The notes under the pieces were generated by a model. It saw only the letters and a list, made by a program, of their open reading frames with translations. It made no database searches and was not told where the DNA came from. This document shows, in pieces, positions 3,282 through 52,199 of a stretch of 64,000 bases of DNA. The DNA comes from Asparagopsis taxiformis (taxonomy: Eukaryota; Rhodophyta; Florideophyceae; Bonnemaisoniales; Bonnemaisoniaceae): assembly GCA_030407315.1 (NCBI GenBank), contig JALQPE010000083.1, forward strand, positions 1 through 64,000. Reading direction: 5' to 3'. Positions within the stretch are counted from its first letter, which is position 1. Every line of letters starts with the position of its first letter. The translations under genes and the position numbers were made by a program.

Positions 3282-6200
3282 ATGGAAGGAACGTTCCACA
3301 ATCACGGTGAAAAGCACGACGGATGGGTGTTCATCGACCCCAATCAAGTCAGCAAATTCGTATCGATTCGCGATGTTGATGCAAGTCATGTGGAAGCGCT
3401 CATGGAGAGCATTCGCAACAGCGGTTATGACACAGCTCATCCCGTGACTGGCAGGTTTCGAGAAGGCGTTCTGGAGATATTGGATGGAGCGCACCGCTGC
3501 ATGGCAATTGTACGTGGAATGAAGAAGGGCGTCTTTCCTCCTGGCGTTACGATTCCTATGCGAGAAGAGTCTATCGTGGCGGACACCAACAGCAGTACTG
3601 CTGTTGTGCTGGACCGTGTGAGAGCGACGACATCCAACGACATTGCAGGCCTGCAAAGGCGCATGATGTTTGTTGAGTATCTGATGATCGCCGTTGATCT
3701 CAGAGACGAGTACTGGGTCCAAAACGGAAAGGACAAGTACGCTCATATTTCGTCTGTGAGGATGGCCGATGTGTTGGGCTGGATCAAATCCTGCGATACA
3801 AGCGGCCAAATTGCTTCAAGCCTGAGTGGTAAACCGCAGTACAGCTCATGCATGTCTATCCTGGCTGTGCTTCGGCCGTATCACCGAGCAGAAGATTCGA
3901 GTTCGATTGATTTGCGTCTGTGGCAAATGTTTTGTCATGCATGGGGACTCAATGCAGAGATGGGTGATTCTCCGAGGATGGTTGAGTTTCCGAAACAGGT
4001 GGGGGTGACTAGTTCTCGTGCCGTCGAAATGTTTGGCAAGACACCCCGCGGAGAATTGTCCTCTCCACTGAACCGCGAACTGCTTTCGAGCAGGTACTTT
4101 CTAGACGGCGCTACATCCGACATGCAAGATTCTTTGCAGGCTAGCCAGAAGCGGTTCAGGAGGCTGATGGTTATGATGTGCCAGTGTATCTTGGCTATTC
4201 GCAGTAAGGAGATGGGCAGTGCGCCATCTAGGCGGGCCAGAGCCACATCCGGGGCCATTGGTGGTGGTGGAATGGTTGGAATTGCAACATCCAGTGCGCA
4301 AGCCAACGAGCTTGGATTTGTTGTCGACCGTGTGTTAGCTGCGTGGGATACCGGGGCAAGAGTGTTGGGGTATGAGGATGTTGAATCGATGTGCTGGCCG
4401 TTCATGGTATTCGATCCTGCGAGCCTTTGCTTCAGGTCACTCCCGAATCGGTCTGATGGCTGCGCGGTCGAGGAGCATCGGAAAAACCTGACCATTGTCC
4501 CGAAAACTGTAGACAGTGAAAACGGGTTCTGTGCCGACCTTCCAGTGGCTGTGGATGCAAGGCTGCGATCATTGACAAGCGCCTTCCTGCTGTCGATACG
4601 CCAATGTGTCACTGAGGTGAATGTGTTCGCCGAGCGTGGTCAGCTGATGCAGAGACTTCGAGCCTTGCTTTTCGACACTCCTGACAAGTTCGGATTGAAC
4701 TCGTTCATGCGAGCCAAGTTGAACACGTCTCATGCCCTGGATGGTCAGAGGAGGCTGAAGGCTTGGTTATTGCGAACCCGAGAGCAACGAAAGCTTCCTC
4801 TGACCATGGATGAGTTGCACAGTCTTGAGGATACGCCCGAGCCTGGCATCCTTGAAGGTGTACCTGCGCAGATGGAAATATCCGCAGCAGTGCCAAACAA
4901 TGGCAGCGAGGATATAGAAGAGGATAGTCTGGAGCCACAGAGGAAGAAGGCTAGGCTGGAGCGCGGTGGTGGAGAGGACGATAATGCGGCGGTTGCTAGC
5001 GAAACAGCAACAAGAGAAGGTGCGGCCGAGGATGACGCTATGGAGGTTGACACTGTATCGCCTACAGAAGCACCGCTCGTTGACGTCGGAAAGGAATCCA
5101 AGCCGGAATATGTCACCAAGCTGGAAGCTGTGATGGGGCGTTACATTCACACTGTGAATTGTGACGCTACTGATGTAGCCAAAGAGGTGGAGGACAAAAT
5201 TAGTTTCCTGGAAGATGGTGTGTTGGAGGACAGTGTTCAGCTTGTGCTCACTGATCCTCCATTCAACACGAGGCGGGAAGGCGGCAGAGAAAACTCGGAG
5301 TACGATATTCTGGAGCCGGAAGAGTTGGCGAGTGTTGCGTGTGAAATAGTTCGAGTTCTTCGGCCTGGCGGTCATGCTCTAATCTATTCCAGCGTGCGCC
5401 AACTCGTGGCATGGATGGATGCAATCAGAAATGCCGAGCCTGGCAAGATGATTGTGGACAGTGTTCCAGTCGTGCTATCTCGCCGACCACACAGCTTTAC
5501 GTCCAATCCATCGACGAAAACGTGCACACTTCATAATATGCACGATTTCGTTATCCATGCGTATAAGCGGGGGAAGGGTATGGCTGCATATGATATGGTG
5601 GATTACAGGTTGCACAATCCGGACATATCGAGGCACCCTGGGTTCACCAACGCGATTGACAACGTTCCGAGGTTGTCGGCTGGTGAAGCTCAATACGATG
5701 GGCAGAACAACCGACTGCGCCATGAGCAGAAGGCGTTGACCACTCTTCGTGAGCTTCTGGAACGATTTTCGAAGCAGAACGATATCGTGATGGATTTCTT
5801 CTCGGGAACATACAGCACAGCCATAGCGTGTATGACGTTGAGGGATGGTACGTATCGTCGGTTCATTGGGTGTGAGAAGGAAAAAAGGTGCCACGATGCA
5901 TCGCAGGAGTCGATACTGCATGCTTTCGTCAGTGAGGTGAAAGCCGGGCGATATGGGGGGATCTTGCAGCGTGAGGTGGAGAGTATTCTTGGGGACGAGT
6001 CGGTACCGGTCACAGGAAAAGCTCCAAGGCTTCGTCAGAAGCACATCTCAGATGCACCAGAAGGTTTGCCTGCTGTGACAGCATTGCCGAACCATCTGCT
6101 TGTGTTCGTTGCGTCAATGAAGAAGGACGGGTCGATGCTTCACAGATTGAGCGGGGTGCCTATGGACCAGTGGCCGGCCGAGGACATGCACTCGTTTTGG

Positions 6201-6749
6201 AGCATAGACCCGGACGCGATTCTGGCTGCTGATGCCGCATTCTACGGTGTCTATGTTTCGCAATCGGAGGTAAGAGGTGGTGGGTTTGGCGTATTCGCGG
6301 CGAAGAAACTGAAGAAGGGGACGGTCATTGGCTGGTACAACGGGACGATTTTCTATGCGAAGATTCGAGACTCGGAACCGCAGAGATCAGTGATGTACGG
6401 CCCGGAAGGATTTGGGTGCACAGGAGAGAGGTTCCAGGACTACAACATGGAATTGGAAACCACGTACATAGGGAGGGGTGCACCTGTTCGGAAGGTCTGG
6501 CTCGTTCCAGCGGTCTATAATTGTACCAGCTACCTCAATGATTGTCGGGTCATTGACGGAACGGAGAAAGCGACCGAGGTGAGTCGAACACAGTCAGCCG
6601 AGTTTCGACAAGGCGATGCCATAGACAAACCGGACTTTGCTTCGAATATCAAGAATCCCCATGCTGTCAAGGTCGTTCTGACCAGAGACGTTGAAGCTGA
6701 TGAGGAGATATTTGCTGACTATGGTAGAAAATATTGGCCAGCTAACTGA
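3282..6749 (+). CDS. ParB-like + DNA N6-adenine methyltransferase + SET fusion protein, 1155 aa
   Basis: The start is ATG 3282 in context GCCATGG; the frame is open three codons further up to a TTG. Domains: ParB/sulfiredoxin-like, residues ~20-80, with DGAHR at ~68-72; a helical middle; a low-complexity acidic linker ~540-615 with a basic patch (RKKARLERG). The methyltransferase ~620-910 has catalytic DPPF at ~657 before the AdoMet motif DFFSGT at ~837, the order of beta-class amino-methyltransferases; DPP[YF] favours N6-adenine. The SET domain ~985-1150 shows GGGFGVFAAKKLKKG, an NCTSYLNDC segment where NHSxxPNC is usual, and EEIFADYG near the end. Predicted actions are DNA adenine methylation and protein lysine methylation in the nucleus. 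ParB-methylase fusions are familiar from phages and prophages; the SET addition is unusual. The altered Asn-His motif could weaken SET activity. Confidence 0.85.
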   Translation: MEGTFHNHGEKHDGWVFIDPNQVSKFVSIRDVDASHVEALMESIRNSGYDTAHPVTGRFREGVLEILDGAHRCMAIVRGMKKGVFPPGVTIPMREESIVADTNSSTAVVLDRVRATTSNDIAGLQRRMMFVEYLMIAVDLRDEYWVQNGKDKYAHISSVRMADVLGWIKSCDTSGQIASSLSGKPQYSSCMSILAVLRPYHRAEDSSSIDLRLWQMFCHAWGLNAEMGDSPRMVEFPKQVGVTSSRAVEMFGKTPRGELSSPLNRELLSSRYFLDGATSDMQDSLQASQKRFRRLMVMMCQCILAIRSKEMGSAPSRRARATSGAIGGGGMVGIATSSAQANELGFVVDRVLAAWDTGARVLGYEDVESMCWPFMVFDPASLCFRSLPNRSDGCAVEEHRKNLTIVPKTVDSENGFCADLPVAVDARLRSLTSAFLLSIRQCVTEVNVFAERGQLMQRLRALLFDTPDKFGLNSFMRAKLNTSHALDGQRRLKAWLLRTREQRKLPLTMDELHSLEDTPEPGILEGVPAQMEISAAVPNNGSEDIEEDSLEPQRKKARLERGGGEDDNAAVASETATREGAAEDDAMEVDTVSPTEAPLVDVGKESKPEYVTKLEAVMGRYIHTVNCDATDVAKEVEDKISFLEDGVLEDSVQLVLTDPPFNTRREGGRENSEYDILEPEELASVACEIVRVLRPGGHALIYSSVRQLVAWMDAIRNAEPGKMIVDSVPVVLSRRPHSFTSNPSTKTCTLHNMHDFVIHAYKRGKGMAAYDMVDYRLHNPDISRHPGFTNAIDNVPRLSAGEAQYDGQNNRLRHEQKALTTLRELLERFSKQNDIVMDFFSGTYSTAIACMTLRDGTYRRFIGCEKEKRCHDASQESILHAFVSEVKAGRYGGILQREVESILGDESVPVTGKAPRLRQKHISDAPEGLPAVTALPNHLLVFVASMKKDGSMLHRLSGVPMDQWPAEDMHSFWSIDPDAILAADAAFYGVYVSQSEVRGGGFGVFAAKKLKKGTVIGWYNGTIFYAKIRDSEPQRSVMYGPEGFGCTGERFQDYNMELETTYIGRGAPVRKVWLVPAVYNCTSYLNDCRVIDGTEKATEVSRTQSAEFRQGDAIDKPDFASNIKNPHAVKVVLTRDVEADEEIFADYGRKYWPAN

Positions 6750-7025
6750 GCTACTTTGATAGATTTGAGTAAACACGCATTGACAGAGACAATAGACTGT
6801 GCATCATCTTCCAAGAGCGCTAGATATTATAGACTACACTACAACAATCGTGACATGACTGCAGGAAGGCATCTGCGGCCTGGAGTGCAAACTATCCACT
6901 TTTCCACTGCTATACCTATGGATACGAAAGGGAGAGAAACTAGAAAGATGTGAGTGCGAAATTGTGTAGCAACGCAGCATGTAGAACACCAGTAAGAGAG
7001 CGATGTAGGAGAAGCAGTCACCCCA

Positions 7026-7323
7026 TTACAGTGCGGGCCGTTTACCGGGGATGCTGACAGCAAAGTCATCGTTACGATGACTTTGCTGTAAGAAAACAAA
7101 TCATTACAGCAGCCATGATTTCTTTACCGGGTAAAAAAATTGTGGCCGCTGTAATGAAACGTTTTCTTACAGCAAAGTCATCGTAACGATGACTTTGCTG
7201 TAAGAAAGCAAATCATTACAGCGGCCACAATTTTTTACCCGGTAAAATTTCTTGCTGATTTTTTACCCGGTAAAAAATTCTTCGGCCACTGTAAGGAACC
7301 CTGGTAAACGGCTTCGGCTGTAA
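7026..7323. repeat. Foldback repeat unit 1
   Basis: The unit has inverted ends of the form CTTACAG...GTTTACC..GGGATGCTTACAGCAAAG and holds two copies of a 39-bp palindrome built on half-site TTACAGCAAAGTCATCGT (7054-7092, 7166-7204). Between them lie TTTACCGGGTAAA motifs. It is closely similar to units at 7856, 12645 and 13506. It could be a MITE-like insert or an end of a nested element. Confidence 0.7.
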
Positions 7324-7324
7324 G

Positions 7325-7402
7325 CAGCAGGGAGTTTCGTCCTTCTCCCATCTTGGTAAAGGTACCTTTACCAAGATCGGAGAAGGAAGAAACTCCCTGC
7401 TG
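7325..7402. repeat. 78-bp near-perfect palindrome
   Basis: CAGCAGGGAGTTTC at the left is matched by GAAACTCCCTGCTG at the right, with CATCTTGGTAAA/TTTACCAAGATC further in and GGTACC at the centre. Half of this palindrome recurs after unit 2 (from 8320) and, inverted, at 13440-13505. It would form a strong cruciform or RNA hairpin. Confidence 0.75.
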
Positions 7403-7855
7403 TCTCACATGAGAAGCGAAGTGTGAAGTAGGGAACATCACGAGAGGATGGTTTGGACGGCTGTTGGTCGCAAAATCTACTCCTTGTGCCGTGAGCCACA
7501 GCGACCATATGGTACCTGTGCCTCACGGCATAAAATATATATTTAACCCGCCCGGGCGGGAACCGGCGCCGGTTCCGGTGCACTATAGTCGTCAATAAGT
7601 AGGACTCTAGCTACTCACTATACAACTATAATCGTAAGGTAGGATAGCCTAAGATCGTAGTACGGAAGAGACGGATGGGAGGATGTGTGTAGAGGAAAAT
7701 TAAGGCGGCAGTACGAGTAGCCTATCGTGGTAATAGACGAGTATTTCATTGCGAGAGGGGGCGTGAGGGGGGAAACGAAAGGCGTCAGTCGTCACCAGAG
7801 AGGCTGGGATGCTGAAGACGGAGTAGAGAAATGGGGGAGAGGGTGCAGCCAGACT
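7403..7855. other. Arm sequence with TATA-like run and GC palindromes, no gene
   Basis: The segment to about 7510 is homologous, inverted, to 13380-13440. It is followed by ATAAAATATATATTTAA at about 7530-7546 and two abutting palindromes, CCCGCCCGGGCGGG (7547-7560) and AACCGGCGCCGGTT (7561-7574). A promoter is possible. No coding frame is supported. Confidence 0.45.
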
Positions 7856-8325
7856 GCTTACAGCTTTGGCAGTTCCGGCGGGGTGCTGACAGCAAAGTCA
7901 TCGTTACGATGACTTTGCTGTAAGAAAACAAATCATTACAGCAGCCATGATTTCTTTACCGGGTAAAAAAATTGTGGCCGCTGTAATGAAACGTTTTCTT
8001 ACAGCAAAGTCATCGTAACGATGACTTTGCTGTAAGAAAGCAAATCATTACAGCGGCCACAATTTTTTACCCGGTAAAATTTCTTGCTGATTTTTTACCC
8101 GGTAAAAAATTCTTCGGCCACTGCAAGGAAACGGTTCCTTACAGCAAAGTCATCGTTACGATGACTTTGCTGTAAGAAAGCAAATCATTACAGCGGCCAC
8201 AATTTTTTTACCCGGTAAAGAAATCGTGGCTGCTGTAATGATTTGTTTTCTTACAGCAAAGTCATCGTAACGATGACTTTGCTGTAAGGAACCCTGGTAA
8301 ACGGCTTCGGCTGTAAGCAGCAGGG
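7856..8325. repeat. Foldback repeat unit 2
   Basis: Same family as unit 1, longer, with four copies of the 39-bp palindrome (7886, 7998, 8138 and 8250 starts) separated by TTTACCCGGTAAA motifs. It begins CTTACAGCTTTGGCAG and ends GGCTTCGGCTGTAAG, an imperfect inverted pair. Confidence 0.7.
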
Positions 8326-8792
8326 AGTTTCGTCCTTCTCTCATCTTTGTAAAGGTAAGAAGCGAAGTTTGAAGTCGGGTAAATTGCTCAGCAAAGGTCT
8401 GTACGGCTGTGAGCAGCTCTCAGGAGTATTTTACCTCACGTGGTCTCTGTTCAGGTTATACCCTGTATATATATAGGTAGCCTAGTGTAGGTGGGAAGAT
8501 AGACGAAAATTCTACAAATAATTTATCACAGTGACGGCTCTCGTAGTCGAAATCTGCGCGTTGTCAAGGGTTGAAACTAGTCTCCCCCTACGGCCTAGCT
8601 AGTAAAATCATATAACGTTGTAGACTAATATTAAAAAGTAGCAAGCAATCTGCTGAGTAGCACTAAACTATGAGATGAAGGACAGATGTATAGATGAGAA
8701 CTGAAAAATGGGCTAAGGTAACAATGTTGAGATGAGAAAGACAGAACTTTATAGCAGGGAACAGTAGTATAGGTTTTAATACTTCTGATATG
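8326..8792. other. Arm copy and 3' flank of the dioxygenase gene
   Basis: 8326-8380 repeats the GGGAGTTTCGTCC arm sequence seen after unit 1, and TGTATATATATAGG follows at about 8470. The rest is AT-rich 3' flank of the minus-strand gene. No gene was recognised. Confidence 0.45.
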
Positions 8793-11700
8793 CTATCTAT
8801 TGCTCCTATCGTACTTGTAATATTCGACGGTGTGGATGTGGTCCGTGAGGACGTCCTTCTCCGTCTTCAAGTGAATGTGGCCGCGCGTGGGCAGGCCATA
8901 GACTAGCTTTTCGCCCGCAGGAATATCTCCGCGCTTGAAGCCGACCCCGTAATGGTAAAGGTCACCGCGACCAACCAATACCGAATAGGGTGGCACATAC
9001 AGCCTATGAATGGGAACCTTCCACATATCGGCGTCCGGATTGGCCAGGCATACATGACTATAAGGGGCAACTACTATAGAGAACCCATCGGCTCCGCTCG
9101 ACATCATGAAATATGATGGAGACTTGGTAGGACTTCCAACACTATTCGTCGTTACCTTGAAGTCCGTGTGCCCATCCTGGTCCGCAGCCCCATCTGCTGT
9201 AAGAAGCAGCCGCAATCCTGTCTTCGGGAAGAAGACAGGATCCTCACCCTCCATTCCCAGCTTGAGAAACTCCGCACAAACACCAAGAGCAAGCTCTGCC
9301 ACCAACTTGTTCTTATACATATCCAAATTTTCCTCCTCCAACTTGTCGCACAACTCACGCCGCGGCAGAGTGAGGCGCCCACGACCACCATCTATGCGGT
9401 CCTTCGCATCACCCACGTTGTGGATGAACTGCCACGGCGAAGGATCGAAGCTGGGCTTTGCGAAAGCTGGCGGCTCGTCCTGTGGCTCCCTGTCGTCATC
9501 GTTAGAATCAGACTGCTGGGAGGGTTTTTCAACCTCCTCAACCAGCGGGAACTGCCTAGCGAAGTGACCGAACAGCTCATGCGTCGCACTCCCAGCCGTG
9601 GACGATTCCAACAAGCGTTCCAAAACAATAACCCCCAAGTTTTCCAGCAACGCCCGCTTCACCGCAAAGTACTGTTCCACCACCGTATCCTCAGCACCCG
9701 GCGATGCAGCTACCTGGAATGCTGCCGCCCTCATTTCCGCCCGAACCGTCTCCACCGTCGTACTTTCCATATAGTACTTCATCCGGCTGCCAGACGCAAT
9801 TGCGCTGGGGAGAACGGCGGCCACATTCTCATCGACGATACTGTCGGGAATGGGATTCTCCTGGGCGTCGTCGAACTGGAGAACCGGCTCCCGAGAGCGA
9901 CCTCGGGAAGCCGACTTGGATTTCTTTGACGACGACTTTGATGAAGTCTCACCGAGCATTCTCTTTTTGGTAGAAGGCTCGGGCGTCGCAGAAGGCGCAT
10001 CCAAGTTACGCTTCCCGAGGATGGAGTTTTCACCCGCATCCTCGGGGGCGCTCTCCAGCTCGACGACCTCCACAGCACCACCCGCCGTTCCACCACGACC
10101 GGAACGACTCGCTTGCAGGCGGGTACTCCTTCTGGGCATCACTTTCCTCCCAGAAGTTTCCACTCCGGGCGGTGCAGAATCACTGACTTCAATGACATCC
10201 CCGTCAGGATCTGCACCGCCCTTCGCACTGCTGCCCTCGACCACATTCTCGGGAGTAGGGCCCTCCGTCGAAATCCTCGCAACCGTCTTCTGTCCAACCC
10301 CACCGGATGGTGAAGGGACGAAACTGTCATCGCTGGAGCTTCCCGAACTGCTAGCAGATGCAGAACGGGAAGCTTCGACAGCGGGGGCCGGAGCAGCAGG
10401 GTGCTGCTCGGCAGCCGGAGTCGCAGGCTCAGGCTGCGAAGCCGGTGAGACCTGCTCCTGCGCGGCTTGGACAGGACGGTTGGGGGTACCAGTCCCGGCG
10501 TGGGAAACTGGACCAGACTGTTCACTGCCAGCCTGGGGACCACGCGCAGTCGGCTTGACCGGGGTCACCGCAGGGGAGGATGCAGACACGGCAGGGGTAG
10601 TGAGAGGAACAGGGGCAACCTCGGAATTACTGGAAGATTCCAGTTGAGGTGGTGGGGGCAAAGGGATGGAGGATGAAGGGATGGGCAAGGAATTGGAAGA
10701 GGAAGGGATGGGGGCATCATCACCACATGTGGCTGGGAGCGCAGCATGTGGGATGTCTGGGTACATCGCGTGAAAGCGTTTCCGCATAATCATGTCGCGG
10801 TACCCAGTGACGCACAGGAGCATTTTCCTGGCGTCCTTCCCGAAGACAGACTTCTTACGGGGAAAAATGTTCTCCGACTTGTAACCATCGGGGGGGCCTT
10901 CCTTGGGACGGAAGTCTGCCCAACACCCCTTCTTGGGGACCATCTGAGCAAGAACTTCGACAACGCGCGAGCGAATGTCGAAGCTCTTGCTCGGGTCACC
11001 CACGCTGGGAATTGAGCCATCCAGCATCCGCAACACATCCGACACGTTCCAGTACTCGGCCACCTCCTTCACGTACCCGAAGATTTCCAACAAACCAGCA
11101 ATCCATTCCTGCCCAATGGTGCCAACCGAGTACGGTTTCAGCCCGGCCGACCGACGGCTACAAGTGTAGCGCGCCGTCATCTCCAGGATGAAACACTTCT
11201 GCACATCCGGAGCACTCCTGAACGACCCATTGAACAACAAGTTCACCGTACAACCAGCCAGATCCTCGGTCGAAGAGAACTGCACGAACTCCGGCCTGTT
11301 CGGAATACTCGACCAGTACTTGAAAGCAGGGCTTTCAATGGTCTTGAACCCTCGCGCGATCGAGACGTAGCGCATGAGCTGTCTCGGACGAATCCAGCTC
11401 AGCGCTTTCCGTTCTTTGATGTATTGAACGGTCGGCTCGATCTTCTTCTTTCCCAGGCGGTGGATATTGATGAACTCCATCACAGAGCACACATTGTCAG
11501 CAACTGTTACCTCGCTGACATTGTGGGTGTGGAAGTTCATCAGCCGTGAAAGCGGGAGTACTTCTTCGGAGCAGAAGACATCCCGGCCAAGCCGAGTCGG
11601 TGGGAGGAGAAAGTCGACTGGAATAGTTCCAAAGCGACGGTAGATGTCAGACTTGACAAACTCCTCCCACTCTGGACTGTCCTTCGCAGGAGCAGGTCCA

Positions 11701-12440
11701 GCCGACTCGAGAATGGCCTTCAACGCGGTCACTCGGTGAGATCCATCGACGTATTGCAGTCGGACTTTTGCATTGGAATCAATCACCTCGCAGACGGACA
11801 CGCGTGAAGCAATCACGGAAAATCCCTGAGTGAGAAACGTTTTCTTCAACTCATCAACGCGATGCGGCCTGACCACCCTGGACACGACTGCCGGAGGAGA
11901 AACATCCAGAGGGGAAATGAAGACTGGAATGTTTCGGCAGCTCTCCGGACTTATGTCGTAGTCCACATCCACCGGGATGGGCACTGTGCCAGGGTAGGCC
12001 AGCCTGGTGCTGCGGAGAGGCTTGTTCGGTACGATGTCACGAGCGTTGTGATCATCGACCTTCTCCGCATCCTCTGCCAAGTCGCTGCCGGACGCGATGA
12101 TCATGTCCGGAGCAGGCGAACTAGGCAGAGGAGCACCAGATCCCTCGACGGCTGGCGCCGCTTCGGCAGATTGAGCCGGAAGCGGAGTTGCGGGAACGCC
12201 AGCGTCGATTGTCGGGACAACCGCGGGATCGGAAGCGGAAGGGGGGGAGGGGACGGGCTTAGGTGCTGGGCTGAGCTGGGTCAGCGCTGCAGCAGCTTCG
12301 CAAACGTCCATGGGGACAGGGGGGGCCAGAGAAGGAGAATGAGAGGGAGAAGGAGAGGGAGAAGGAGTGGGAGAATCGTTGTCACGGCGGCTGGCAGAGC
12401 GCACCTGGCGGTCGAAAGCGTTGGGGGATTGTTGAGCCAT
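8793..12440 (-). CDS. ParB-like + 2OG-Fe(II) dioxygenase-like fusion, 1215 aa
   Basis: The likely start is ATG 12440 in context AGCAATGG; the open frame runs 23 codons further up to a TTG. The first ~150 residues are Pro/Ser/Ala-rich. A ParB-like domain spans ~170-250 with DGSHR near 234, followed by a helical middle to ~570. About 590-900 is low complexity with basic patches. The C-terminal ~1010-1205 shows an HxD pair (DGHTDF, near 1090), a distal His (DLYHYG, near 1163) and an Arg in PTRGH near 1186, the spacing expected of a double-stranded beta-helix 2OG-Fe(II) oxygenase. Such enzymes can oxidise N-methyl groups or modified bases; the substrate here is unknown. The domain recurs in the transposase at 13952-16840. 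The gene lies between inverted foldback units. Confidence 0.75.
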   Translation of the reverse strand: MAQQSPNAFDRQVRSASRRDNDSPTPSPSPSPSHSPSLAPPVPMDVCEAAAALTQLSPAPKPVPSPPSASDPAVVPTIDAGVPATPLPAQSAEAAPAVEGSGAPLPSSPAPDMIIASGSDLAEDAEKVDDHNARDIVPNKPLRSTRLAYPGTVPIPVDVDYDISPESCRNIPVFISPLDVSPPAVVSRVVRPHRVDELKKTFLTQGFSVIASRVSVCEVIDSNAKVRLQYVDGSHRVTALKAILESAGPAPAKDSPEWEEFVKSDIYRRFGTIPVDFLLPPTRLGRDVFCSEEVLPLSRLMNFHTHNVSEVTVADNVCSVMEFINIHRLGKKKIEPTVQYIKERKALSWIRPRQLMRYVSIARGFKTIESPAFKYWSSIPNRPEFVQFSSTEDLAGCTVNLLFNGSFRSAPDVQKCFILEMTARYTCSRRSAGLKPYSVGTIGQEWIAGLLEIFGYVKEVAEYWNVSDVLRMLDGSIPSVGDPSKSFDIRSRVVEVLAQMVPKKGCWADFRPKEGPPDGYKSENIFPRKKSVFGKDARKMLLCVTGYRDMIMRKRFHAMYPDIPHAALPATCGDDAPIPSSSNSLPIPSSSIPLPPPPQLESSSNSEVAPVPLTTPAVSASSPAVTPVKPTARGPQAGSEQSGPVSHAGTGTPNRPVQAAQEQVSPASQPEPATPAAEQHPAAPAPAVEASRSASASSSGSSSDDSFVPSPSGGVGQKTVARISTEGPTPENVVEGSSAKGGADPDGDVIEVSDSAPPGVETSGRKVMPRRSTRLQASRSGRGGTAGGAVEVVELESAPEDAGENSILGKRNLDAPSATPEPSTKKRMLGETSSKSSSKKSKSASRGRSREPVLQFDDAQENPIPDSIVDENVAAVLPSAIASGSRMKYYMESTTVETVRAEMRAAAFQVAASPGAEDTVVEQYFAVKRALLENLGVIVLERLLESSTAGSATHELFGHFARQFPLVEEVEKPSQQSDSNDDDREPQDEPPAFAKPSFDPSPWQFIHNVGDAKDRIDGGRGRLTLPRRELCDKLEEENLDMYKNKLVAELALGVCAEFLKLGMEGEDPVFFPKTGLRLLLTADGAADQDGHTDFKVTTNSVGSPTKSPSYFMMSSGADGFSIVVAPYSHVCLANPDADMWKVPIHRLYVPPYSVLVGRGDLYHYGVGFKRGDIPAGEKLVYGLPTRGHIHLKTEKDVLTDHIHTVEYYKYDRSNR

Positions 12441-43022: not shown

Positions 43023-43152
43023 GTCAAAACACCAGCGGGTGGACTGTTCGTTTCGTTTCGTAAGGACAGCGTGTCCACTAGCTCGTACCAGCTACTTCGT
43101 CACCGAACTATCGTTCCACACCGTTCTTAGTTCTTAGACTTCTTCTGTCTAT

Positions 43153-44700
43153 AACACGGTTCAGTAATAAAACAGAATAAAAAAACTAGAACAGAATTTG
43201 CTGGATATGGGAAAATGGTAGCGTAAACGGCGCCTAGACTACAGTGCGTAGCACTGTAGAAAGAAATGCTGCCACGTGTGCGTGGTTCCTGCTATTGTAA
43301 AATTAGCGTTGTTCCTTGAATAGTTTACAGCATTGCTACGGTGAAAAACTATTATTGAAACAGCTGCATTGAGTTCCTGTCGGTTATGCTGTGTTCTGCC
43401 TGTGTGGTTACACTGGTCAGTGTTTATTTTAAATCAAATTTCAAGAATTGCACATGACATGCAGTTGCACTTGGCAACCTTGAGGCAAGCTTGCGCGGCT
43501 GTGCTTGTACCATTTGCTCGTGTCCCAATGGCCGTCGCTATTGGCGGGCACCAATTCATCAGCTAGCTGGCTGGTTGTGGGCTGCTGGCTGTACTAGTTC
43601 CCTTGCGAGGATTTTGGGTGAGGCAGGCTGACTTCAGATCATTGTACTACATGTATGGTGATTAGTAGTTTTAGCTGGGGAGAAATTTACGATTCTGATT
43701 TGGAAGATACTGTGCACTAGCTGAAACTATACGCACGCCGACAGCTGCTATTGTTGCACTATGTCACAAAGAAATGCATTCCAGGCAGTGTTCGACACTG
43801 CAGTGCTGAGTGTTCCTGAGCATATTGGTTCATATCTTAAATTCCACTGCAGTGAGCTGAAATGCGACCTATCGAAGTTTGAAGCTGCCGCTGACTGATA
43901 AGTTTCACGTCCATATACATATGGAAAAAACCATCAAATATTGTTTCCAGTTGTAGTGACTATGAATAGCAAAAAGTGAGATGACTTGTCAGTGTTTAAG
44001 TCAGTGGCTATGTAGACAGATGCCACAAGGATTTCCGACTGATTATTTGATGCGGGCAAACCTGCTGGATACATGGGGAGTCTGCCAGCAGCGGTAGACT
44101 GCCGCTTTAAATACCAGTGTTTAACATCCTGTATCACAGGGGAATAATGCAGTCAGTATGTAGTGTGTAGTAGTGTTGCGCTATGAGGACACGTATGATA
44201 GGGAAGAAATGATATTTCAAACGGGTACAGCTGTCACATTACTATCATAGGCTGAGCACAAGACGGGGCTGTTCACTGTTCAATGAGTCGTGCACATCAT
44301 TGATGTTATACGATCGTATAACATCGCACGAGCACCTCGAGGTGCTCCGTTGTGTGACAAGGTACACTGTACACTGACCGCCAATGAATGAAGCTTTTCT
44401 GTTGGTAGAATAGAGTTTGGAGGATGGCTACCATGTTCGGAGGTTGATATACATCACTACAAGTCCGTATTCAAACTGCACGGGTACGTTTGCGGTATGC
44501 ATTATATGATGATACCTGAACAATGAAATGCCGTAGAAGATTTCTAGTGGTAACAGAAGTAATATTCAACTTGTATGGAGTATACCATATGCATGTATAG
44601 ATTTGACTATAGCTTCATCTTCATTTCCTAATGTTGGTTTGACTGTTCTGATTTGGTGCAAGTTCAATTGAACCTGCACAGTATCTATAGGTAAGATTCA
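43153..44700. repeat. Left terminal inverted repeat of element C
   Basis: About 1548 bp matching 52579-54126 inverted, with only a few differences. It contains a perfect 24-bp palindrome at 44302-44325 centred on CGATCG and an 18-bp palindrome GAGCACCTCGAGGTGCTC at 44330-44347. Small ORFs of 65 and 67 codons occur in both arms but show no coding pattern I trust. Confidence 0.9.
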
Positions 44701-45307
44701 TCCTACCAATGGGTGTACAACAACTGCACTTATTTTATAAGAAAGGAGAAATGGTGAAGCTGGGCAAGGGAAATCAACTGAATGGCTCCTGTCAGCCAAG
44801 CCGATGGGCCCAACCGCAGGCAGTAGCACGTTCACGAGGTTCTGAACTTCATCTAGCACGAAGTGTAACGGCTGGCACTCCTTCGTGTAGCGTACTCATA
44901 GTATGCAATTGAAGTCCGTCAAGAATGTGTACACAAGCGGAAAGTACCAGACCGCCGTCAAAATAGGAACTGGGTGTCGCTATAGCGACCCCTCAAATGT
45001 CTATCCAAGCTATAGTTTCATAGACGTGTACACACAGGTGCCGCAAACGTTCAGCTGTACAGTTCTGTAGGCTTCGGGGTTTACACTTGCACAGCTGAAA
45101 CGCCAAACAAAGCAGCTAAACGGAAAGGGAAAGACGGTTGGAGTGTACGTGCACGTATGTAAGCGCAATAGCAGTCGTGCACAGATTAAGATATGTCTAT
45201 GGTATACATAGTTTGTGTAGTAGATTTCGAAGCGCTTACGTAGGAGGTAAATACAGAACGCGCGCTCTAAAGAAGAACAAGAGGAAATTTAATCCAAAAG
45301 TTACATG
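44701..45307. other. Gap between left arm and transposase, nothing recognised
   Basis: 3' side of the transposase gene. No repeat, RNA or coding frame is supported. Confidence 0.4.
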
Positions 45308-47434
45308 CTACAGACAGGTGGATAGAGATTCTTTGATTCGCTTTGAGTCATCAGTTGAAAGACGATTGTCTCGTCGCAATTTTGTTAAACGCGCCAAGAC
45401 GGTATTGGAACTAATTTCTGCCGTCCACTCCTTGTTGTTGCTCAGAATTGCTCGCCTATATTTCGAAAGGTGTGGATCTTTCTTGTTACCGTAAGCTTCT
45501 AGCCACACGATTTTCAGTCGATGGATAAGACCATCCCCATTCGCAATAACTCCATCAACGGAAGCAAGCCAGAAAGGGCAGCTCTCATCATCAGTTCGAA
45601 TTGCAATCATATCATCAATAGAGTAGCTATAATCAATGACGGATTCTTCCTCAGTGTCACTGCCTTCAGTCGTAATCATTCCATCCCTCTTACGCGAGCA
45701 TTTTAACTGTAAAACTGATTCTGGAGATGAACTCTTGCTCCAGTGTATAGGATCCTTTCTTGGTTTGTAAATCGTATCAACAAGCTTCTCAAGCTCATCC
45801 ATCTTGACTTTGCTAGCAATTCGAGACTCCGCAGAGAAGATACCACGGCGTACTTCGAGAAAGTTTTCTGGGGGAGTGGTAAATGTTGGAGGAGCTGAGA
45901 AAATATCCGGTGTGAACTTTAGGAATCCCCCTGACTTATCTGAATGCAAATAGTTCCATTCAAGCTGACAAGCCTCTTTAACAGAGACAGTAGTTCTGGA
46001 CCTTTCATATCGACTTCTTGGTTCTCCAGCCTCCTTAGAAAAGCGGAAGTACCTGAAGTGCGAAAATGGGGGCACGTTAGCGAGGCAGTGAGACTGTTCG
46101 AAAAGAGACGACAGATTTATGACATGCAACATATGGCTGACATGAGGCTGGGGAGTATATGAACATGACAGCTCATGAATTAAATCCTGCAAGGTAACTG
46201 CAGAGTGGGTCTTGAGCCGTTTGGAGGTACAGGAAAAGCTTTGGTCGATATCCTCGTGGGTATGACCTACAGGTAAAAATGACACTTGTATCTCTGAAAA
46301 CACTTCCAGTGCCACGAGGCATTCTATGTAAGAAAAGAAGTACCGATTCTTATTCTCACGCGTACAATTGTCGACCTGAACAAATAAAACATCTGGTAGT
46401 CTCCCCTCCATCTCTTTCCGGGATAGCCATCTATGTAGTGCTTCAATAACGTGGTTAGCGCCTGTTTTGTGCTCGTCCGTCATAGTTAACAGTGTAAGCT
46501 TATTCGGAGACGCGTGCTCCAGTATGCCTGTGAGGTGTACACCAATTTTGTGACCCCGTTGTGTTGCCTTTGTTTCATATGGCCAATGCGGAAGTCCATA
46601 AGCGCTTTGGGATGCTCCGTCTATGATGATGCTCGCAAACTTCTTTGGTAATTTTCTTGCCAGTTCTCTGTTCTTGTAATACTGTAACCGTTCCTTTTCA
46701 ACGAATTGATGATGCTTCTTTTGTAGTTCACGGAGCGCGTCAGTCTTTAAGCGATCTATTCCTGCATCTGCTAGTTGTTGCCTTAGTTGTTCACACACGT
46801 CACACTTTGAGAATCGATGTACCCGCCTGCACTTGATATCCTGGCAATATGATTGCCACACGGTGATAAAATACGCGTAAGTAGGAACAGCTAGAATGTT
46901 TCCTGTACCGTCTTGTTCTCTCCATTGCATCTCGAAACGTTCATACACATGCTTCTTCTCAAAATACGGTAGATGTAGTTGGCTGCAGTCCGGCATTTTG
47001 TTGGCAGTGCACTCTGCAAGATATTCGAGAAACGATCTTATGGAATCTCTAGCGGTTTGTTTCGCGCCTAGAATAGGCATACGTATGATCGATTTCGAGC
47101 CGGAAGATTTGGGAGTTTCTTTGACTGCACATTGTAGAAATCTAGACATCCCAAATCCAACCTCCAGGAACCTGGAACATACTTGAAGACCATCAAAGAA
47201 ATATCTCTGCTTTGTTATGTTGTTCGTATCAACAATCCTTAGCATGGATATCAATGATAGTTTTCGCTGTGCCTGAGTCATTTCGAAGAACCTTTTCCTT
47301 TGTGCTTTGAAATACACCTGATTCACTCTAGTGAAGCAGCGTTTTCCCTTGCAGCACTTCCATTCGGATATATTGAGGTCCATTGATTCATTCGCATTCC
47401 GTAAACGTTTGATTTTCAGCTCAGAGAGACCCAT
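45308..47434 (-). CDS. DDE transposase of the type associated with DUF7869, 708 aa
   Basis: ATG 47434. Near the N-terminus WKCCKGKRC is a possible zinc site. About 205-260 has HRFSKCDVCEQLRQQ followed by a long helix (HHQFVEKERLQYYKNRELAR), a series I recall from DUF7869-type proteins of algae and animals. The probable catalytic set is Asp in IIIDGASQSAYGLP (~270), Asp in VQVDNCTRENKN (~354) and Glu/Asp in GHTHEDIDQSFS (~394). About 620-665 (DDMIAIRTDDE, FWLASVDGV, LKIVWLEAYG) resembles an SH3-like chromatin-binding fold. It should cut and rejoin the ends of element C. Family naming is from memory. Confidence 0.7.
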   Translation of the reverse strand: MGLSELKIKRLRNANESMDLNISEWKCCKGKRCFTRVNQVYFKAQRKRFFEMTQAQRKLSLISMLRIVDTNNITKQRYFFDGLQVCSRFLEVGFGMSRFLQCAVKETPKSSGSKSIIRMPILGAKQTARDSIRSFLEYLAECTANKMPDCSQLHLPYFEKKHVYERFEMQWREQDGTGNILAVPTYAYFITVWQSYCQDIKCRRVHRFSKCDVCEQLRQQLADAGIDRLKTDALRELQKKHHQFVEKERLQYYKNRELARKLPKKFASIIIDGASQSAYGLPHWPYETKATQRGHKIGVHLTGILEHASPNKLTLLTMTDEHKTGANHVIEALHRWLSRKEMEGRLPDVLFVQVDNCTRENKNRYFFSYIECLVALEVFSEIQVSFLPVGHTHEDIDQSFSCTSKRLKTHSAVTLQDLIHELSCSYTPQPHVSHMLHVINLSSLFEQSHCLANVPPFSHFRYFRFSKEAGEPRSRYERSRTTVSVKEACQLEWNYLHSDKSGGFLKFTPDIFSAPPTFTTPPENFLEVRRGIFSAESRIASKVKMDELEKLVDTIYKPRKDPIHWSKSSSPESVLQLKCSRKRDGMITTEGSDTEEESVIDYSYSIDDMIAIRTDDESCPFWLASVDGVIANGDGLIHRLKIVWLEAYGNKKDPHLSKYRRAILSNNKEWTAEISSNTVLARLTKLRRDNRLSTDDSKRIKESLSTCL

Positions 47435-49271
47435 CCTGGTAATAACTAACTCTGGTGGAGAATAAAGCCCTTCTCCCTCTTTTCGCTGTCCTCATTCGGC
47501 CTCTTTTCTTTGGGTATCTTCTTTTATCAGTTCAACTTCAGATGTTTTGATGAACGAATGAGAAGTCTTAAATAGTGGTAGAAGGGAAGATGATAATAGT
47601 TTCGTTACAGAATTTCATTCATGGCAGGACGAGCTTTAAGAAACTAGACCAGTCTAGAACTCGAAACGAAACGCCCTTGAATCCAACGGCTTTTTACCAG
47701 TATCCTGACACTGCATTTCAGGCTGAATGCAATACTCTGCGTCGAAGAAGCAGGGGAAGATTTAGGTTCCATGCGGAAGAGAAACGTATAGACAGCCGAT
47801 GATTTTTTAAAGAGATGGCCGCACTAGATGTCCGAAATATCTTCACTCAGAAACATATTGTTTCGATATCCTCCGATCCCGCGTAATGTATCAGCGAGTC
47901 AGCGTTCACATAATTATTGTATTCCAATTCCAAACGAAACAGCCTGTTTACTAGCTGTTTCTCTTGAAACTGATACATAATATCACCGCATTCAAGTGAC
48001 ACTCGAGCTTTAGTGACCGTTCATGCCAACAGTGACCTGTCTACCTTCTGACAGTTGACCATCCAAGACCTGTTTACAGGTTGCGGCCTGTAGGTCAGGT
48101 CTGTCTGAAAAGTTATGTTTTTGGTGGGGCACACGCGAGACAACAATGCTTGCAATCGATAACTAGAGGAAGCTTGCGTCATGACTCGCAACAGCTCCAC
48201 TGTACGAGAGGCATACTAAACCTCATATGGTCATGTAATGGGAATTACACCGGATATGATAAACTTTTCGTGCTACTACATGCTCTCTGAGGTATAAGAA
48301 AGTTGAAAAGCTGCGGCCTTCCAACTGTCATGACGAAGTATGATAGAAATGTATGACAGAAAAAAATTCATGGATATAAGATCGCTTCAAAATGAGGAAT
48401 CTGGTGTAAGTTACTATTGGTCCAACCAATGACGAACTGTTCATAACCCTAAATGGAACTGTGCTGTTCTACTTATTCATGGATACTTGGCCTGTGCTTT
48501 AGTTTTCCATTCTATTTTGAAGACACGTATGTGTCTCACGTGATATTACGTACAGGAGCATGTGACCCGTCGAAAATGTTCACAGGCCAACATCTCTTAG
48601 AGCTCTTTCCAATCCGAAAGGTATTTTTGTCTCCCAGTATTCGATCACATGATGGACAGAATTTACAAATAGAAAGGCTGTGCAGATACTTTAAATTTCA
48701 ATTAATTGTGTGGGGCTATATCAACCATTGAAGTTCTCCTTGAATACTAGGTGTTATTCAACGAAATCAGCTTTCTTAACGGAGCGTGTTGTTCTCTGTT
48801 TCTGATATTCGGTGACATCGCAGTTAACGAAAGCAGCTCTGTAGCTCATAAATTGCACTTTACAAACAGCCAAATTTCACTCTATGATGATTCCAATCAG
48901 TTGATACGGTGCTGACATCCAGAGAAGTATCGGAAGGATTTCAGTTCAATTCCTGAGATAATATTCATACCCTATCTTTCCTTTCAAGCATCTTGGATCT
49001 CCTCGAATAATTGTTTTCTACAGTTTCCTAGCAAGCTTTTTGCGATTCGAAAGCTCGTGAAAACACAAATAAGTCTTTCACAGATCCAGAAAAGATCAAC
49101 GAGACACTTCTACTTGAATTCTTCTCTTTTAGGATCCTGAATCTCTACATTTTATTCAAGAGCAAGAGAAGCACAAGAGTACAAGCATCACCTACACCTA
49201 CCGAGTTCCTGGAGAACAACTTCAAGAATCTTTGCTGTTGCAGAGATTGATTGGGATCTAATCTGCAAAGG
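47435..49271. other. Divergent intergenic region of element C
   Basis: 1.8 kb between the transposase (-) and methylase (+) starts, AT-rich, with only short ORFs. It should contain both promoters. The pyrimidine-AG at about 49130 could be a 3' splice site for a 5' UTR intron, which is unproven. Confidence 0.45.
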
Positions 49272-52199
49272 ATGAACTCAGCGAAAGAGCATTTCGCTCA
49301 ATTACTAGAGGGAGCAACTGCGCAGAGCCTAGATCCAATGTCATGTTTACCGTTCACACGAATTAGGAATATCGTGGACGGATGTGTTGAAGTTCTTTGC
49401 AACATTTTTGAGGAGCTAGGAGGTTTGACAACAGGAGGGTCAATGGCATATGCCATCAGGCTAGAAGGTGTGTACGCCTCATATCCTCTGGAATACTTTA
49501 GGGAAAAGATGGGGAGTGAAGAGGATGCCATTAAGGAAGTGAGAAAAAGAGAACTGTGGTATGGAATAGTGGACGGTGAGCACCGTTTGACGGCGTTGCA
49601 GAAACTTATATGTAAGGATCCAGCAAAATGGGCGGGTTTCTCATGGACTGTTACGATACTCAAAACGTCTGCTTCAATGGCCGCACTTCGCGCTTTTGCC
49701 AGAGCATGTAACCAGAAAAATGTCGACGACTTCGTCGTCATCCCAACACAGTACGACGTGTTGAAAAATCTCAAACAAGACTATACCACATTGAGCGCGA
49801 AACTGAACAGAAAAGCCAAACCAATAGAACTTGCAATTTATTATTCCGGAAGCAAGGAAGCTTGTACCTCAACTATTAAGCAGCTGGCAGGCTGCGTTAT
49901 AAGGTTACCTCAGTCTGTTATAGATACAATTGGAAAAATTGTGAATGAAGAGAACAAGGAGTTGGCCATGCGCATTCACTACAAGACTAACTCAAAACAC
50001 TCAAAAAATGCTGCCGTTGACTCAAGGATATACCGCAACTTAATTTCTTCTTCAACGTTGAAGGGGTCTACTCCCTTCATGAATGCAGAAGGTCCAGACG
50101 GAGAGGCAGCTCAGCTGAACTCGCTGTGGCGCATTCGAGAGATTTCTCGGTCATCCGGGTATGGTCCAATGAAGCCGTCCGTACTCACTGAACAGTTCCT
50201 CGCTGCGAGTGCAGCTGTACAAGAAGTGCGCAAATTCGAGAAGCTTATGGAGACGGTATTATGGCCGAAAGAGATGGAGGTTATGCGAAGGAACGCGGAA
50301 AGAACACAACTATTTGATGAAGAAATAGCCGCTAATTTCGGAAATCTCCTTGAACCGCTACCTGCTTTCTACAAAGCGTTCAAATTGTCATGTCCCGCTG
50401 TTGCGCATCAGAAGCTCCTCAAATTCCGAGGAGATATGGACTGTTCGTCTACAGGACAGAACAAAGATACTGAGACTAGAAAGGGCTCTCCGTTGAACGA
50501 TGTGTATAGTGAAGAAAATGAGCCCTCTCCCTCCAACACTGGAAATCATTCAGTACATGGTCATCTACCAACGGAATGTGGAGTAGACGATTCAAAACTT
50601 GAAGCATCAGAAGCAAACTATGGCGCGCTCGGAAGCAGAAAAGTTTTGGCTCATTCTGACAAGCGCTCAAATTGTTCTTCCATTCCAGAAGCTTCAAGTA
50701 ATGATTGTTCTAATTTAACGTCAGGAGACAGAGAACATCGAAGCCCACAACTCGTTTCAGCTCTAACAGAAGAAATAGCGGATGTGGAAAGTGTCCTAGA
50801 GAATGCAGGGATGAAGTGTTTTGCAATGGAGTGGCAACACTTCGAGAAACACAGCGGAACATACGAGTCGTTGAAAGGCAGAGTGTCAACAATTCTTACA
50901 GACCCTCCATATTCACTTCAGAACGTATCTGCCTCCGGAGCTGGATCTACCTATGACGACTTTCTGGACGACAAAGAAATCACTGCTTTCACACAGTTTT
51001 CAAGGAGACTTCTATGTCCAGAAGGTTCGGTTGTCATGTTCACTAGCTGGCAAACTTTTCCAAGATGGTTCGCGTCCTTCTCTTCTAATGGCTTTCAGGT
51101 TTTAAATTACCCAATTGTCGTGGCCAAAGATACTAAGACTATACGGCGAAATGGTCGTCTCAAGATGCCTCAATGTGCTGTGGACTTTATTCTTTTGGCA
51201 TATGCCCCTGGAAAGGTCAGGGATGGTTCTCGTGCCATAGATTTCGACTGTCCGTATCAGCTAATCAATTGCTCTCATAGCAGGAAGTTCAACATTATAG
51301 ATGGCGTTCCTGTCCCTAAAGCTAAGCTTCAGCATATTCATTCAAGGAAAATTGTTCGTGTGGAGGAGAAAAATATAGACCTGTTGCAGGAATTGTTAAC
51401 TTCATTCTGTCCTTCCGGTGGCATCGTCTGTGATCCTTATGCAGGAACGTTGACAACAGGTCTAGCATGCCTACAAACTTCCCGTGAGGCTATCTTAATC
51501 GAAAAAGACCAATTGTGCTTGTCATTGGGAAAGGAAAGGCTTGCAAAAGTTGCTGCTGACCTCATGAAGAAAAAATCAACGTCAAATTTAACCCTTCGAA
51601 GTGAAGGAAGAGTCAGGGAAGCATCTACGGAAAATGTTCATCAATCACCGGATCAGGTTTGTCGGGAGCCGAATACGGTCTTACCTGGTTGTGGAAGGTC
51701 TCGAGGTTGTGCTGAGAAAGTTGAGAAGGAGGTGGAGGGATTGGCTAGTCGAGATACTCCACTTTCATCGGAGGCAGTATTATCTACAGATATCTGTCCC
51801 AATGAGCTTCAAAAACGCAATCTAGAACCAAAAGGACCAAAACTGAATTCAGTACGAAAAAGTAAGAGGCTCAAGAAGAATAGTGCTGAAACCTCAAGTG
51901 GAACTGCTTCGAAGAAAAGGTTAGGCGAAGAGGCTAATTGTCCGATAGAGACTAGTCCAAGAACTCCTACCGATGGGCAAACCACAACCAGAACCAACTG
52001 TATTCTCAGTGACCGCTGCAATGTTCTTGCATTGATGCCTGATGGCCATTTTGCAATGACAAGTCACCGGTGTGATATGTGTGGAAAATATATTCATTCT
52101 CCCTGTGAGTATGGGAAGCGAGTACTTGGTCTAGCTAACCGATGCGAGAAGTGGTCATGTTCTAAGGAGTGCTTCGAGCATTCAATGCAACTAGAGTAG
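49272..52199 (+). CDS. ParB-like + DNA N6-adenine methyltransferase with C-terminal Cys-rich domain, 975 aa
   Basis: ATG 49272; the frame is open seven codons further up to a TTG. A ParB-like N-terminus spans ~40-140 with DGEHRLTAL at ~102-110. A helical middle reaches ~370, then an acidic/Ser-rich linker to ~500. The methyltransferase ~500-760 has DPPY at ~544 and CDPYAGTLTTGLA at ~720, the beta-class order and the adenine-type motif. About 780-920 is a Lys/Ser-rich linker. The C-terminus (~932-970) has CDMCGKYIHSPC, then WSCSKECFEH, a probable zinc-binding module. Predicted role: adenine methylation of DNA, perhaps of element C itself. It resembles 3282-6749 in plan but not closely in sequence, lacks SET, and sits in an unrelated transposon. 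Confidence 0.82.
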   Translation: MNSAKEHFAQLLEGATAQSLDPMSCLPFTRIRNIVDGCVEVLCNIFEELGGLTTGGSMAYAIRLEGVYASYPLEYFREKMGSEEDAIKEVRKRELWYGIVDGEHRLTALQKLICKDPAKWAGFSWTVTILKTSASMAALRAFARACNQKNVDDFVVIPTQYDVLKNLKQDYTTLSAKLNRKAKPIELAIYYSGSKEACTSTIKQLAGCVIRLPQSVIDTIGKIVNEENKELAMRIHYKTNSKHSKNAAVDSRIYRNLISSSTLKGSTPFMNAEGPDGEAAQLNSLWRIREISRSSGYGPMKPSVLTEQFLAASAAVQEVRKFEKLMETVLWPKEMEVMRRNAERTQLFDEEIAANFGNLLEPLPAFYKAFKLSCPAVAHQKLLKFRGDMDCSSTGQNKDTETRKGSPLNDVYSEENEPSPSNTGNHSVHGHLPTECGVDDSKLEASEANYGALGSRKVLAHSDKRSNCSSIPEASSNDCSNLTSGDREHRSPQLVSALTEEIADVESVLENAGMKCFAMEWQHFEKHSGTYESLKGRVSTILTDPPYSLQNVSASGAGSTYDDFLDDKEITAFTQFSRRLLCPEGSVVMFTSWQTFPRWFASFSSNGFQVLNYPIVVAKDTKTIRRNGRLKMPQCAVDFILLAYAPGKVRDGSRAIDFDCPYQLINCSHSRKFNIIDGVPVPKAKLQHIHSRKIVRVEEKNIDLLQELLTSFCPSGGIVCDPYAGTLTTGLACLQTSREAILIEKDQLCLSLGKERLAKVAADLMKKKSTSNLTLRSEGRVREASTENVHQSPDQVCREPNTVLPGCGRSRGCAEKVEKEVEGLASRDTPLSSEAVLSTDICPNELQKRNLEPKGPKLNSVRKSKRLKKNSAETSSGTASKKRLGEEANCPIETSPRTPTDGQTTTRTNCILSDRCNVLALMPDGHFAMTSHRCDMCGKYIHSPCEYGKRVLGLANRCEKWSCSKECFEHSMQLE

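Follow-up and report, generated by a model that had tools for sequence, protein, structure and literature searches.

CACTA-ended and DUF7869 transposons of the red alga Asparagopsis taxiformis encode proteins with ParB-like N-termini and different predicted modification modules

The first 64,000 nucleotides of contig JALQPE010000083.1 (C83:1-64000; hereafter the window), from an Asparagopsis taxiformis genome assembly of 141.5 Mb in 3,156 contigs (GCA_030407315.1), harbor two DNA transposons of different type, a CACTA-ended element (element A) and a DUF7869 element (element B). These encode three large proteins—P0001, P0003 and P0002—for which a preliminary description had proposed a common ParB-like N-terminus followed by different DNA- or chromatin-modifying modules. 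All three open reading frames (ORFs) are present and intact, with the correction that P0003 is encoded on the minus strand, which is open for 1,215 codons; the plus-strand translation of this stretch is broken by stops. The assignment of ParB-like proteins with different modules to CACTA and DUF7869 transposons also held, except that P0001 and P0003 turned out to share one element. The principal features are:

1..19414, plus strand: element A, a CACTA-ended transposon of 19.4 kb with ends CACTACGGTGTTG ... CAACACCGTAGTG
3282..6749, plus strand: P0001, with a ParB-like domain (~17-116), a middle part, an amino-methylase domain (652-875) and a SET domain (1001-1148)
7025..8380: cluster of palindromes where the 3' ends of P0001 and P0003 face each other, with 39-bp palindromes CTTACAGCAAAGTCATCGTWACGATGACTTTGCTGTAAG and others
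8793..12440, minus strand: P0003, with a low-complexity N-terminus, a ParB-like domain (~165-345), a middle part, a low-complexity linker and an oxygenase-like C-terminus (1000-1215; HxD, H, R)
12645..13732: another cluster of palindromes, on the upstream side of P0003; together with the first it flanks this gene
13952..16840, minus strand: transposase-like ORF with a CACTA-type GD.PA...GH.S..PCH.C segment (recognized by eye) and, at its end, another oxygenase-like domain
43153..54126, plus strand: element B, a DUF7869 transposon with terminal inverted repeats of 1547 bp (99.7% identity) and CTAT flanks on both sides
44302..44347: element B palindromes GATGTTATACGATCGTATAACATC and GAGCACCTCGAGGTGCTC in the left inverted repeat, mirrored at 52932-52977
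45308..47434, minus strand: DUF7869 protein, the presumed transposase of element B (PF25273, E=1.2e-50)
49272..52199, plus strand: P0002, with a ParB-like domain (~20-150), a middle part, an amino-methylase domain (538-747) and a C-terminal Cys/His zinc-like module (~925-970, by eye)

The left end of element A coincides with the contig start, where its first base differs. Copy comparison revealed identical limits in three further copies (on contigs C1856, C1805 and C2407), two of which keep the terminal CACTA inverted repeats CACTACGGTGTTG...CAACACCGTAGTG; the left end of the C2407 copy reads CACTAAGG, one change. Genome-wide, we counted 724 left ends with up to three mismatches (350 forward and 374 reverse), as compared to 0 for a reversed control. 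CACTA transposons generate target duplications of 2-3 bp. The C1856 copy interrupts a long terminal repeat (LTR) retrotransposon of which an uninterrupted relative lies in the window, and the joined flanks match at 93.3%, best after removal of a 2-bp duplication (AA); no target duplication was seen in the flanks of the C1805 and C2407 copies. ORF 13952-16840 had no Pfam match, either to a CACTA-type transposase profile or to any other family. Placement of P0001 and P0003 in separate elements was considered and rejected, the shared limits putting both, tail to tail, within a single element A.

Genome-wide searches returned at least 40 copies of P0001 at 99-100% identity (best 40 of 3,826 candidates scored) and at least 38 of P0003 at 97-100% (best 38 of 7,236); these and all further scored-copy counts (40, 38, 150, 150, 150 and 107) are lower bounds. 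Many element copies are near-identical and therefore recent. Among the matches listed, a P0001-type methylase lies no more than 10 kb from 18 of the 38 P0003 copies, tail to tail; three of the remainder abut a contig start on the partner side, and 17 are not judgeable among the methylase matches listed. For element B, GATGTTATACGATCGTATAACATC occurs in 30 exact copies genome-wide, namely 13 pairs spaced 8,651-8,652 bp apart and four single sites (control 0).

Related gene sets recur outside the two elements. Methylase domains of family PF01555 occupy at least 150 places in the genome (best 150 of 2,605 candidates) and fall into several classes of frame length. One of these loci, on contig C1850 (L044, L040, L045), belongs to a second CACTA-type family: a Plavaka transposase (E=8.8e-23) neighbors a coiled-coil ORF, a methylase-SET protein matching residues 287-1151 of P0001 (E=9e-43), a ParB frame and an oxygenase frame. 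The latter two are separate at C1850 and form a single frame in all five copies checked by coordinates (C321, C474, C254, C613 and C547). The second-family oxygenase and ParB domains each map to at least 150 places (best 150 of 3,306 and of 1,346 candidates, respectively), those listed all at 100% identity. As for element B, the N-terminus of P0002 yielded 109 matches from the best 107 of 651 candidates, ranging from 100% to 34% identity; many lie in open frames of 960-1,106 amino acids, some contain stops, and the domain recurs in subfamilies at 34-80% identity. On C197, the P0002 relative L039 adjoins a DUF7869 protein 38% identical to that of the window. The pairing thus recurs within each transposon group, one further locus having been examined per group.

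We assessed the putative ParB-like domain by several profile comparisons. The boxes DGAHR, DGSHR and DGEHR, which had first drawn attention to these proteins, are found in the N-termini as claimed, and a DG-x-x-R box aligns in five sequences (DGAHR, DGSHR, DGLHR, DGEHR, DGHHR), the corresponding residues of P0008, a distant P0002 relative from another source, being DGLHS. Residues 1-130 of P0001 matched 23 phage records (E up to 10), the best being a Leptospira phage ParB-like protein (E=1e-4); of the 15 matches listed, nine are annotated as ParB or nucleoid occlusion proteins and the rest as hypothetical or otherwise named. Among plasmids the same region matched five records (E up to 1; best E=5e-4)—three KorB, one ParB N-terminal and one hypothetical—and in PHROG three ParB families (E=0.003, 0.16 and 0.36). 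The ParB-like part of the second CACTA family had no match among phages, and that of L039 had five, with E>=6 and none annotated as ParB.

A profile built solely from four phage ParB-type proteins (L051-L054) was searched against 15 element proteins together with 3,015 shuffled or reversed decoys. Ranks 1-7 went to P0001, P0006, P0007, P0002, the second-family ParB, L039 and P0003, so that seven of the eight ParB-bearing proteins scored above all decoys; among those listed, no element protein lacking the motif ranked better than 96. In a second ranking, the same profile was run on 754 ORFs of 100 or more amino acids from genome loci (L030 and L051-L054 left out; many repeats from overlapping loci) and placed all 38 ORFs of five transposon classes—many of them near-identical copies—at ranks 1-38, above the 716 others, the next ORF having E=6. 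E-values in this ranking were ~1e-9 to 4e-9 for P0001, 0.0015-0.024 for the P0002 family, 0.1-0.65 for the L033/L039 type, 0.17 for the second-family ParB and 0.43-0.44 for P0003. The test favors DGxHR proteins, this being the motif by which three of the five classes were first chosen; PF01555 and position, rather than the motif, led to the L033/L039 type and the second-family ORF. Taken singly, only P0001 and the P0002 family give predicted ParB matches that we consider convincing. P0003 reached E=1.2e-4 once P0001 and the second-family ParB had been added to the profile, and its ParB-like part matched the second-family ParB at E=4e-4. A common ParB-like N-terminus is therefore supported by profile evidence as a predicted feature, secure for P0001 and weak for some members, P0003 among them when judged singly; the Pfam family for this domain, ParB_N (PF02195), detected no transposon protein anywhere in the genome (E up to 1). 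Its single hit was an ORF on C1526 (L030), a bacterial-type ParB protein whose contig is probably a bacterial one within the assembly.

When a five-member profile was compared with the sequences of solved structures (E up to 10), six of 17 matches were SbnI or free serine kinase (best E=0.14), and P0002 weakly matched GmrSD_N (E=0.042, below the cut-off). SbnI, the serine kinases and GmrSD_N belong to the same superfamily (ParB/Srx fold) as ParB. The N-terminal domain might accordingly sit in the ParB/Srx group without being a DNA clamp, serving as an enzymatic or regulatory part akin to the SerK/SbnI serine kinases or GmrSD_N, with targeting residing elsewhere. We regard this as unlikely: P0001 matches partition-type ParB better, and the kinase and GmrSD_N matches fall below significance, with unrelated proteins among the former.

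With respect to the attached modules, N6_N4_Mtase (PF01555; cut-off 26.7 bits) was detected in P0001 (E=2.3e-16, 60.9 bits; motif DPPF) and in P0002 (E=1.3e-14, 55.1 bits; motif DPPY). The closest solved relatives of the P0002 methylase are 8urk/9c3u (methyltransferase) and the adenine methylase DpnA, N4-cytosine enzymes scoring lower. Adenine, the target assumed in the preliminary description, is a candidate; the Pfam family covers both N6 and N4 enzymes, and sequence alone does not settle the base. In P0008, SPPS replaces DPPY, and its methylase is perhaps catalytically dead. The SET domain of P0001 exceeded the Pfam cut-off (E=4.5e-6, 27.5 bits; cut-off 22.4), as did that of its second-family counterpart L040 (29.5 bits). 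P0003 matched no Pfam family. The methylase of P0002 was likewise borne out; its zinc module is visible by eye, the corresponding zinc-finger match being sub-threshold (E=0.06). In a phage protein search, phage methylases matched the methylase parts of P0001 and P0002, and no phage record matched more than 80% of either protein; contig scans returned no relatives of P0001, P0003 or the P0002 alignment in viral contigs. In the protein database, P0001 had one near-identical match and P0002 four; residues 165-1215 of P0003 had none.

The C-terminus of P0003 carries a complete HxD...H...R triad, as does the second-family protein (30% identity, E=3e-17). Because of this HxD, distal H and R motif we read the domain as a putative 2-oxoglutarate (2OG)-type oxygenase, and its conservation in the second element family also backs this assignment. 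ORF 13952-16840 ends in a further oxygenase-like domain, 49.7% identical to the P0003 C-terminus over 155 residues (E=6e-45), which is fused in frame to the transposase-like part and lacks the aligned arginine. No Pfam or PHROGs match to TET/JBP was obtained for the oxygenase parts.

These modules could be explained as independent tools directed solely against host silencing, with the oxygenase stripping host methyl marks and the methylase-SET protein writing a permissive one, rather than as writer and eraser of one mark. For the TET/JBP genes of fungal transposons, Kojima 2025 (PMC12730594) proposes escape from silencing, and SET genes are mentioned there for HarbingerS and MuDR; PMC12695648 describes N6-methyladenine (6mA) as accompanying permissive chromatin across eukaryotes. 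Against this stands the absence of any TET/JBP or other oxygenase family match for the P0003-type domains, and we hold the explanation to be possible, at less than even odds.

Selection was examined domain by domain. Between P0002 and its relative L036, nonsynonymous divergence (dN) was 0.17 in the ParB-like domain, 0.16 in the middle, 0.17 in the methylase and 0.22 in the zinc module, as compared to 1.0-1.1 in two linkers, synonymous divergence (dS) being saturated; against L033 and L039, the domains reached 0.59-0.83 and the linkers 1.2-1.4. For P0003 against L020 and L021, dN/dS values, which rest on small counts, were 0.16 and 0.11 in the ParB-like domain, 0.05 and 0.04 in the middle, 0.36 and 0.44 in the linker, and 0.34 and 0.45 in the oxygenase region; comparison with L018 involved too few changes (middle 0.36). 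In L017, nearly all differences from P0003 fall within the oxygenase region (0.45), a pattern that an exchange between copies would leave. The analysis supports purifying selection on the N-terminal ParB-like domains. It also bears on whether the genes are mere passengers, captured from the host or from bacteria and of no use to the element. Transposons do often carry captured fragments, and constraint on the oxygenase is modest, but the frames are open in many copies, a similar gene set is found in two CACTA families, several DUF7869-type subfamilies retain open frames, and dN is low in domains versus ~1 in linkers. Capture without function thus appears very improbable.

Inspection of element A for inverted symmetry revealed 26 palindromes whose arms measure 9 bp or more, as compared to 0-1 in five mononucleotide shuffles. 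The 25-bp core of the two internal clusters occurs in 8,457 exact copies genome-wide (control 0), or ~12 per left end with partial copies included; chance as the origin of the palindromes was rejected on these two comparisons. In the window the exact core is present at 11 of 12 sites, and in L049 and L050 at 11 of 14 and 7 of 12 sites, respectively, within matched stretches 74-92% identical. L049 (C4) and L050 (C10), which are related to element A but divergent, carry palindrome arrays and, within the piece analyzed, sequence resembling the 3' portion of P0003 (86-87%). The ends of element A bear a AGACAGTA/TACTGTCT motif unlike the internal palindromes. In the second family, a 43-bp palindrome lies between the methylase-SET and ParB-oxygenase genes (L045, 148-190), with 157 exact cores genome-wide (control 0). 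It is possible that the palindromes represent a separate inserted element, or that they are kept alike via gene conversion.

Such sites could equally serve transposition itself: the ParB-like domain would clamp subterminal or internal palindromes for the transposition complex or its own promoter, and the methylase would mark new DNA, much as methylation state times bacterial transposition. The palindrome clusters that flank P0003 and sit between genes would suit this role, as would the recent activity implied by many near-identical copies and the way in which ParB-type proteins work at partition sites of their own. It leaves the SET domain and the oxygenase unexplained, however, and the subterminal repeats, the usual binding sites of CACTA transposases, differ in sequence from the internal palindromes. 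We therefore consider a role confined to transposition rather unlikely.

The reading we favor, with a probability of about one half, is that these DNA transposons carry their own targeted modification enzymes, such that element DNA and chromatin are self-marked under ParB guidance. The ParB-like domain would recognize palindromic sites on the element, perhaps spreading from them as partition ParB does, and would thereby bring the amino-methylase to element DNA and chromatin, accompanied, where CACTA elements are concerned, by a SET histone methylase. A separate ParB-bearing protein would bring the putative 2OG-type oxygenase to element chromatin, where it might remove or oxidize a mark of host or element origin. 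The most likely use would be to impose on its own copies a chromatin state refractory to host silencing, under which the transposase could be expressed or the element could move, although the benefit to the element is presumed, as is any writer/eraser relation of methylase and oxygenase. A more specific version, in which a partition-type ParB at element-borne palindromic 'parS-like' arrays steers both a DNA-and-histone writer and a separate ParB-steered oxygenase—a sequence-guided epigenetic identity tag shared by two or more CACTA-type families, the DUF7869 group having a methylase-zinc form of it—is tentative, and we would sooner doubt it than assume it.

A number of observations weigh against self-marking. 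A ParB-like scaffold with different modules is repeated in divergent families, with N-termini under purifying selection, but a strict view in which every module is ParB-borne is contradicted by the second CACTA family, whose methylase-SET protein is without a ParB-like N-terminus; the two proteins may therefore cooperate, or the writer may find its target otherwise. Similarly, only 10 of the 40 P0001 copies have a P0003 partner among the matches listed, and for a copy on C224 the contig continues on the partner side with no P0003 among the matches listed. As an intact P0003 should have ranked there, the pair is probably absent from some copies. As to the domain itself, P0003 alone was marginal in the decoy test (E=1.7 versus 1.8 for the best shuffled decoy), and P0008 ranked 13, falling to 58 once P0001 joined the profile. 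Profile-profile comparison among the N-termini gave pairwise hhalign E-values of 0.0025 (P0002 family with P0001), 0.0008 (P0002 family with P0003) and 0.048 (P0001 with P0003), yet probabilities of only 12%, 24% and 1%. Fold prediction, which the preliminary description had named as a refutation test, was run on the N-terminus of P0003 only and yielded no usable fold (mean predicted local distance difference test score, pLDDT, 37.4), a result that counts neither way in that respect. The model of the P0003 C-terminus was equally too poor for a usable fold (mean pLDDT 34.7). The oxygenase proposed there, though its motif is kept in the second family, found no match to a Pfam family (E up to 10), structure, phage or plasmid, nor did the second-family oxygenase match in plasmids; dN/dS of the P0003 oxygenase region resembles that of the linker and exceeds that of the ParB-like and middle parts, indicating weaker constraint. 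Finally, the 39-bp palindromes, as candidate binding sites of the ParB-like domain, are tied to it by co-location only, and in L029, a close copy of element A, the exact core occurs at six of nine sites, the other three carrying mismatches.

The remainder of element A and its immediate surroundings comprise the following:

907..2433, plus strand: ORF of 508 amino acids in element A, with no confident family and two Pfam matches, both below cut-off
18642..19414: right subterminal region of element A, with a 35-bp tandem array bearing GTGCTGCCCAGGGCAGCAC palindromes, and AGACAGTA/TACTGTCT motifs that are also present left-subterminally
19408..27188, minus strand: partial second copy of element A, including a P0001 copy (19618-22599) without its C-terminus

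The tandem array (18642-19054) comprises 11.8 copies, at least six of which hold the GTGCTGCCCAGGGCAGCAC palindrome. Within the second copy of element A lies a 1.3-kb insertion (22866-24162), overlapped and extended beyond by an ORF (23104-24492) of no family. LTR retrotransposon stretches occupy 27143-38103 and 39633-42056, of the same kind as the insertion target of the C1856 copy. An isolated CACTA-related right end (54398-56678), 85-88% identical to parts of 16936-19415, lies ~0.3 kb past element B, and a lipase class 3 gene at 61316-62935 on the plus strand (PF01764, E=2.7e-17) is likely a host gene.

If the favored reading is correct, selfish DNA can build self-recognition and self-marking from a bacterial partition domain, a DNA/histone writer and a matched oxygenase. 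The system would then provide a convenient way of testing the function of bacterial-type amino-methylation in eukaryotes, with the second CACTA family, whose writer has no ParB part, as a natural control.

Several known systems share parts of this arrangement. ParB-type proteins of the phages LE1 (Leptospira), Milano and Whouxphf match the ParB-like domain, and fusions of ParB with methylases occur in phages. To our knowledge, VANDAL elements (VANC) have no enzyme domains of this kind, and the bdelloid rotifer N4-methylcytosine enzyme has no ParB. VANDAL anti-silencing elements are alike in that a transposon encodes sequence-directed control of its own epigenetic state, as described in PMC12730594. 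The rotifer enzyme likewise brings a bacterial-type base modification to eukaryotic DNA (PMC8885841). It is encoded by a host gene rather than by a transposon. PMC12695648 treats MT-A70 6mA enzymes, the words 'ParB' and 'demethyl' being absent from its main text. SET domains are encoded by other DNA transposons, genes in HarbingerS and in MuDR of Phytophthora being cited in PMC12730594; here, in contrast, the SET domain shares a protein with a DNA amino-methylase (in element A also with a ParB-like domain) and belongs to CACTA-type elements. Closest in outline are the fungal DNA transposons, including EnSpm, Plavaka, Kyakuja and Dileera and thus some of the CACTA/Plavaka group, many of which the same text reports to carry an iron/2OG-type DNA-modifying oxygenase gene, in several lineages per genome. 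Those oxygenases are of the TET/JBP family, and the word ParB occurs 0 times in the text of that paper, whereas in the present elements the oxygenase-like domain has no TET/JBP match, the N-terminus is ParB-like, and one element encodes a methylase-SET protein as a partner. In the listed titles and starts of abstracts, a search thin on subscription papers, we found no report of ParB in eukaryotic transposons; a single paper, on maize (PMC8855575), holds both ParB and CACTA as terms. Transposons with epigenetic enzymes are already known; what is unusual here is the targeting domain together with the paired modules.

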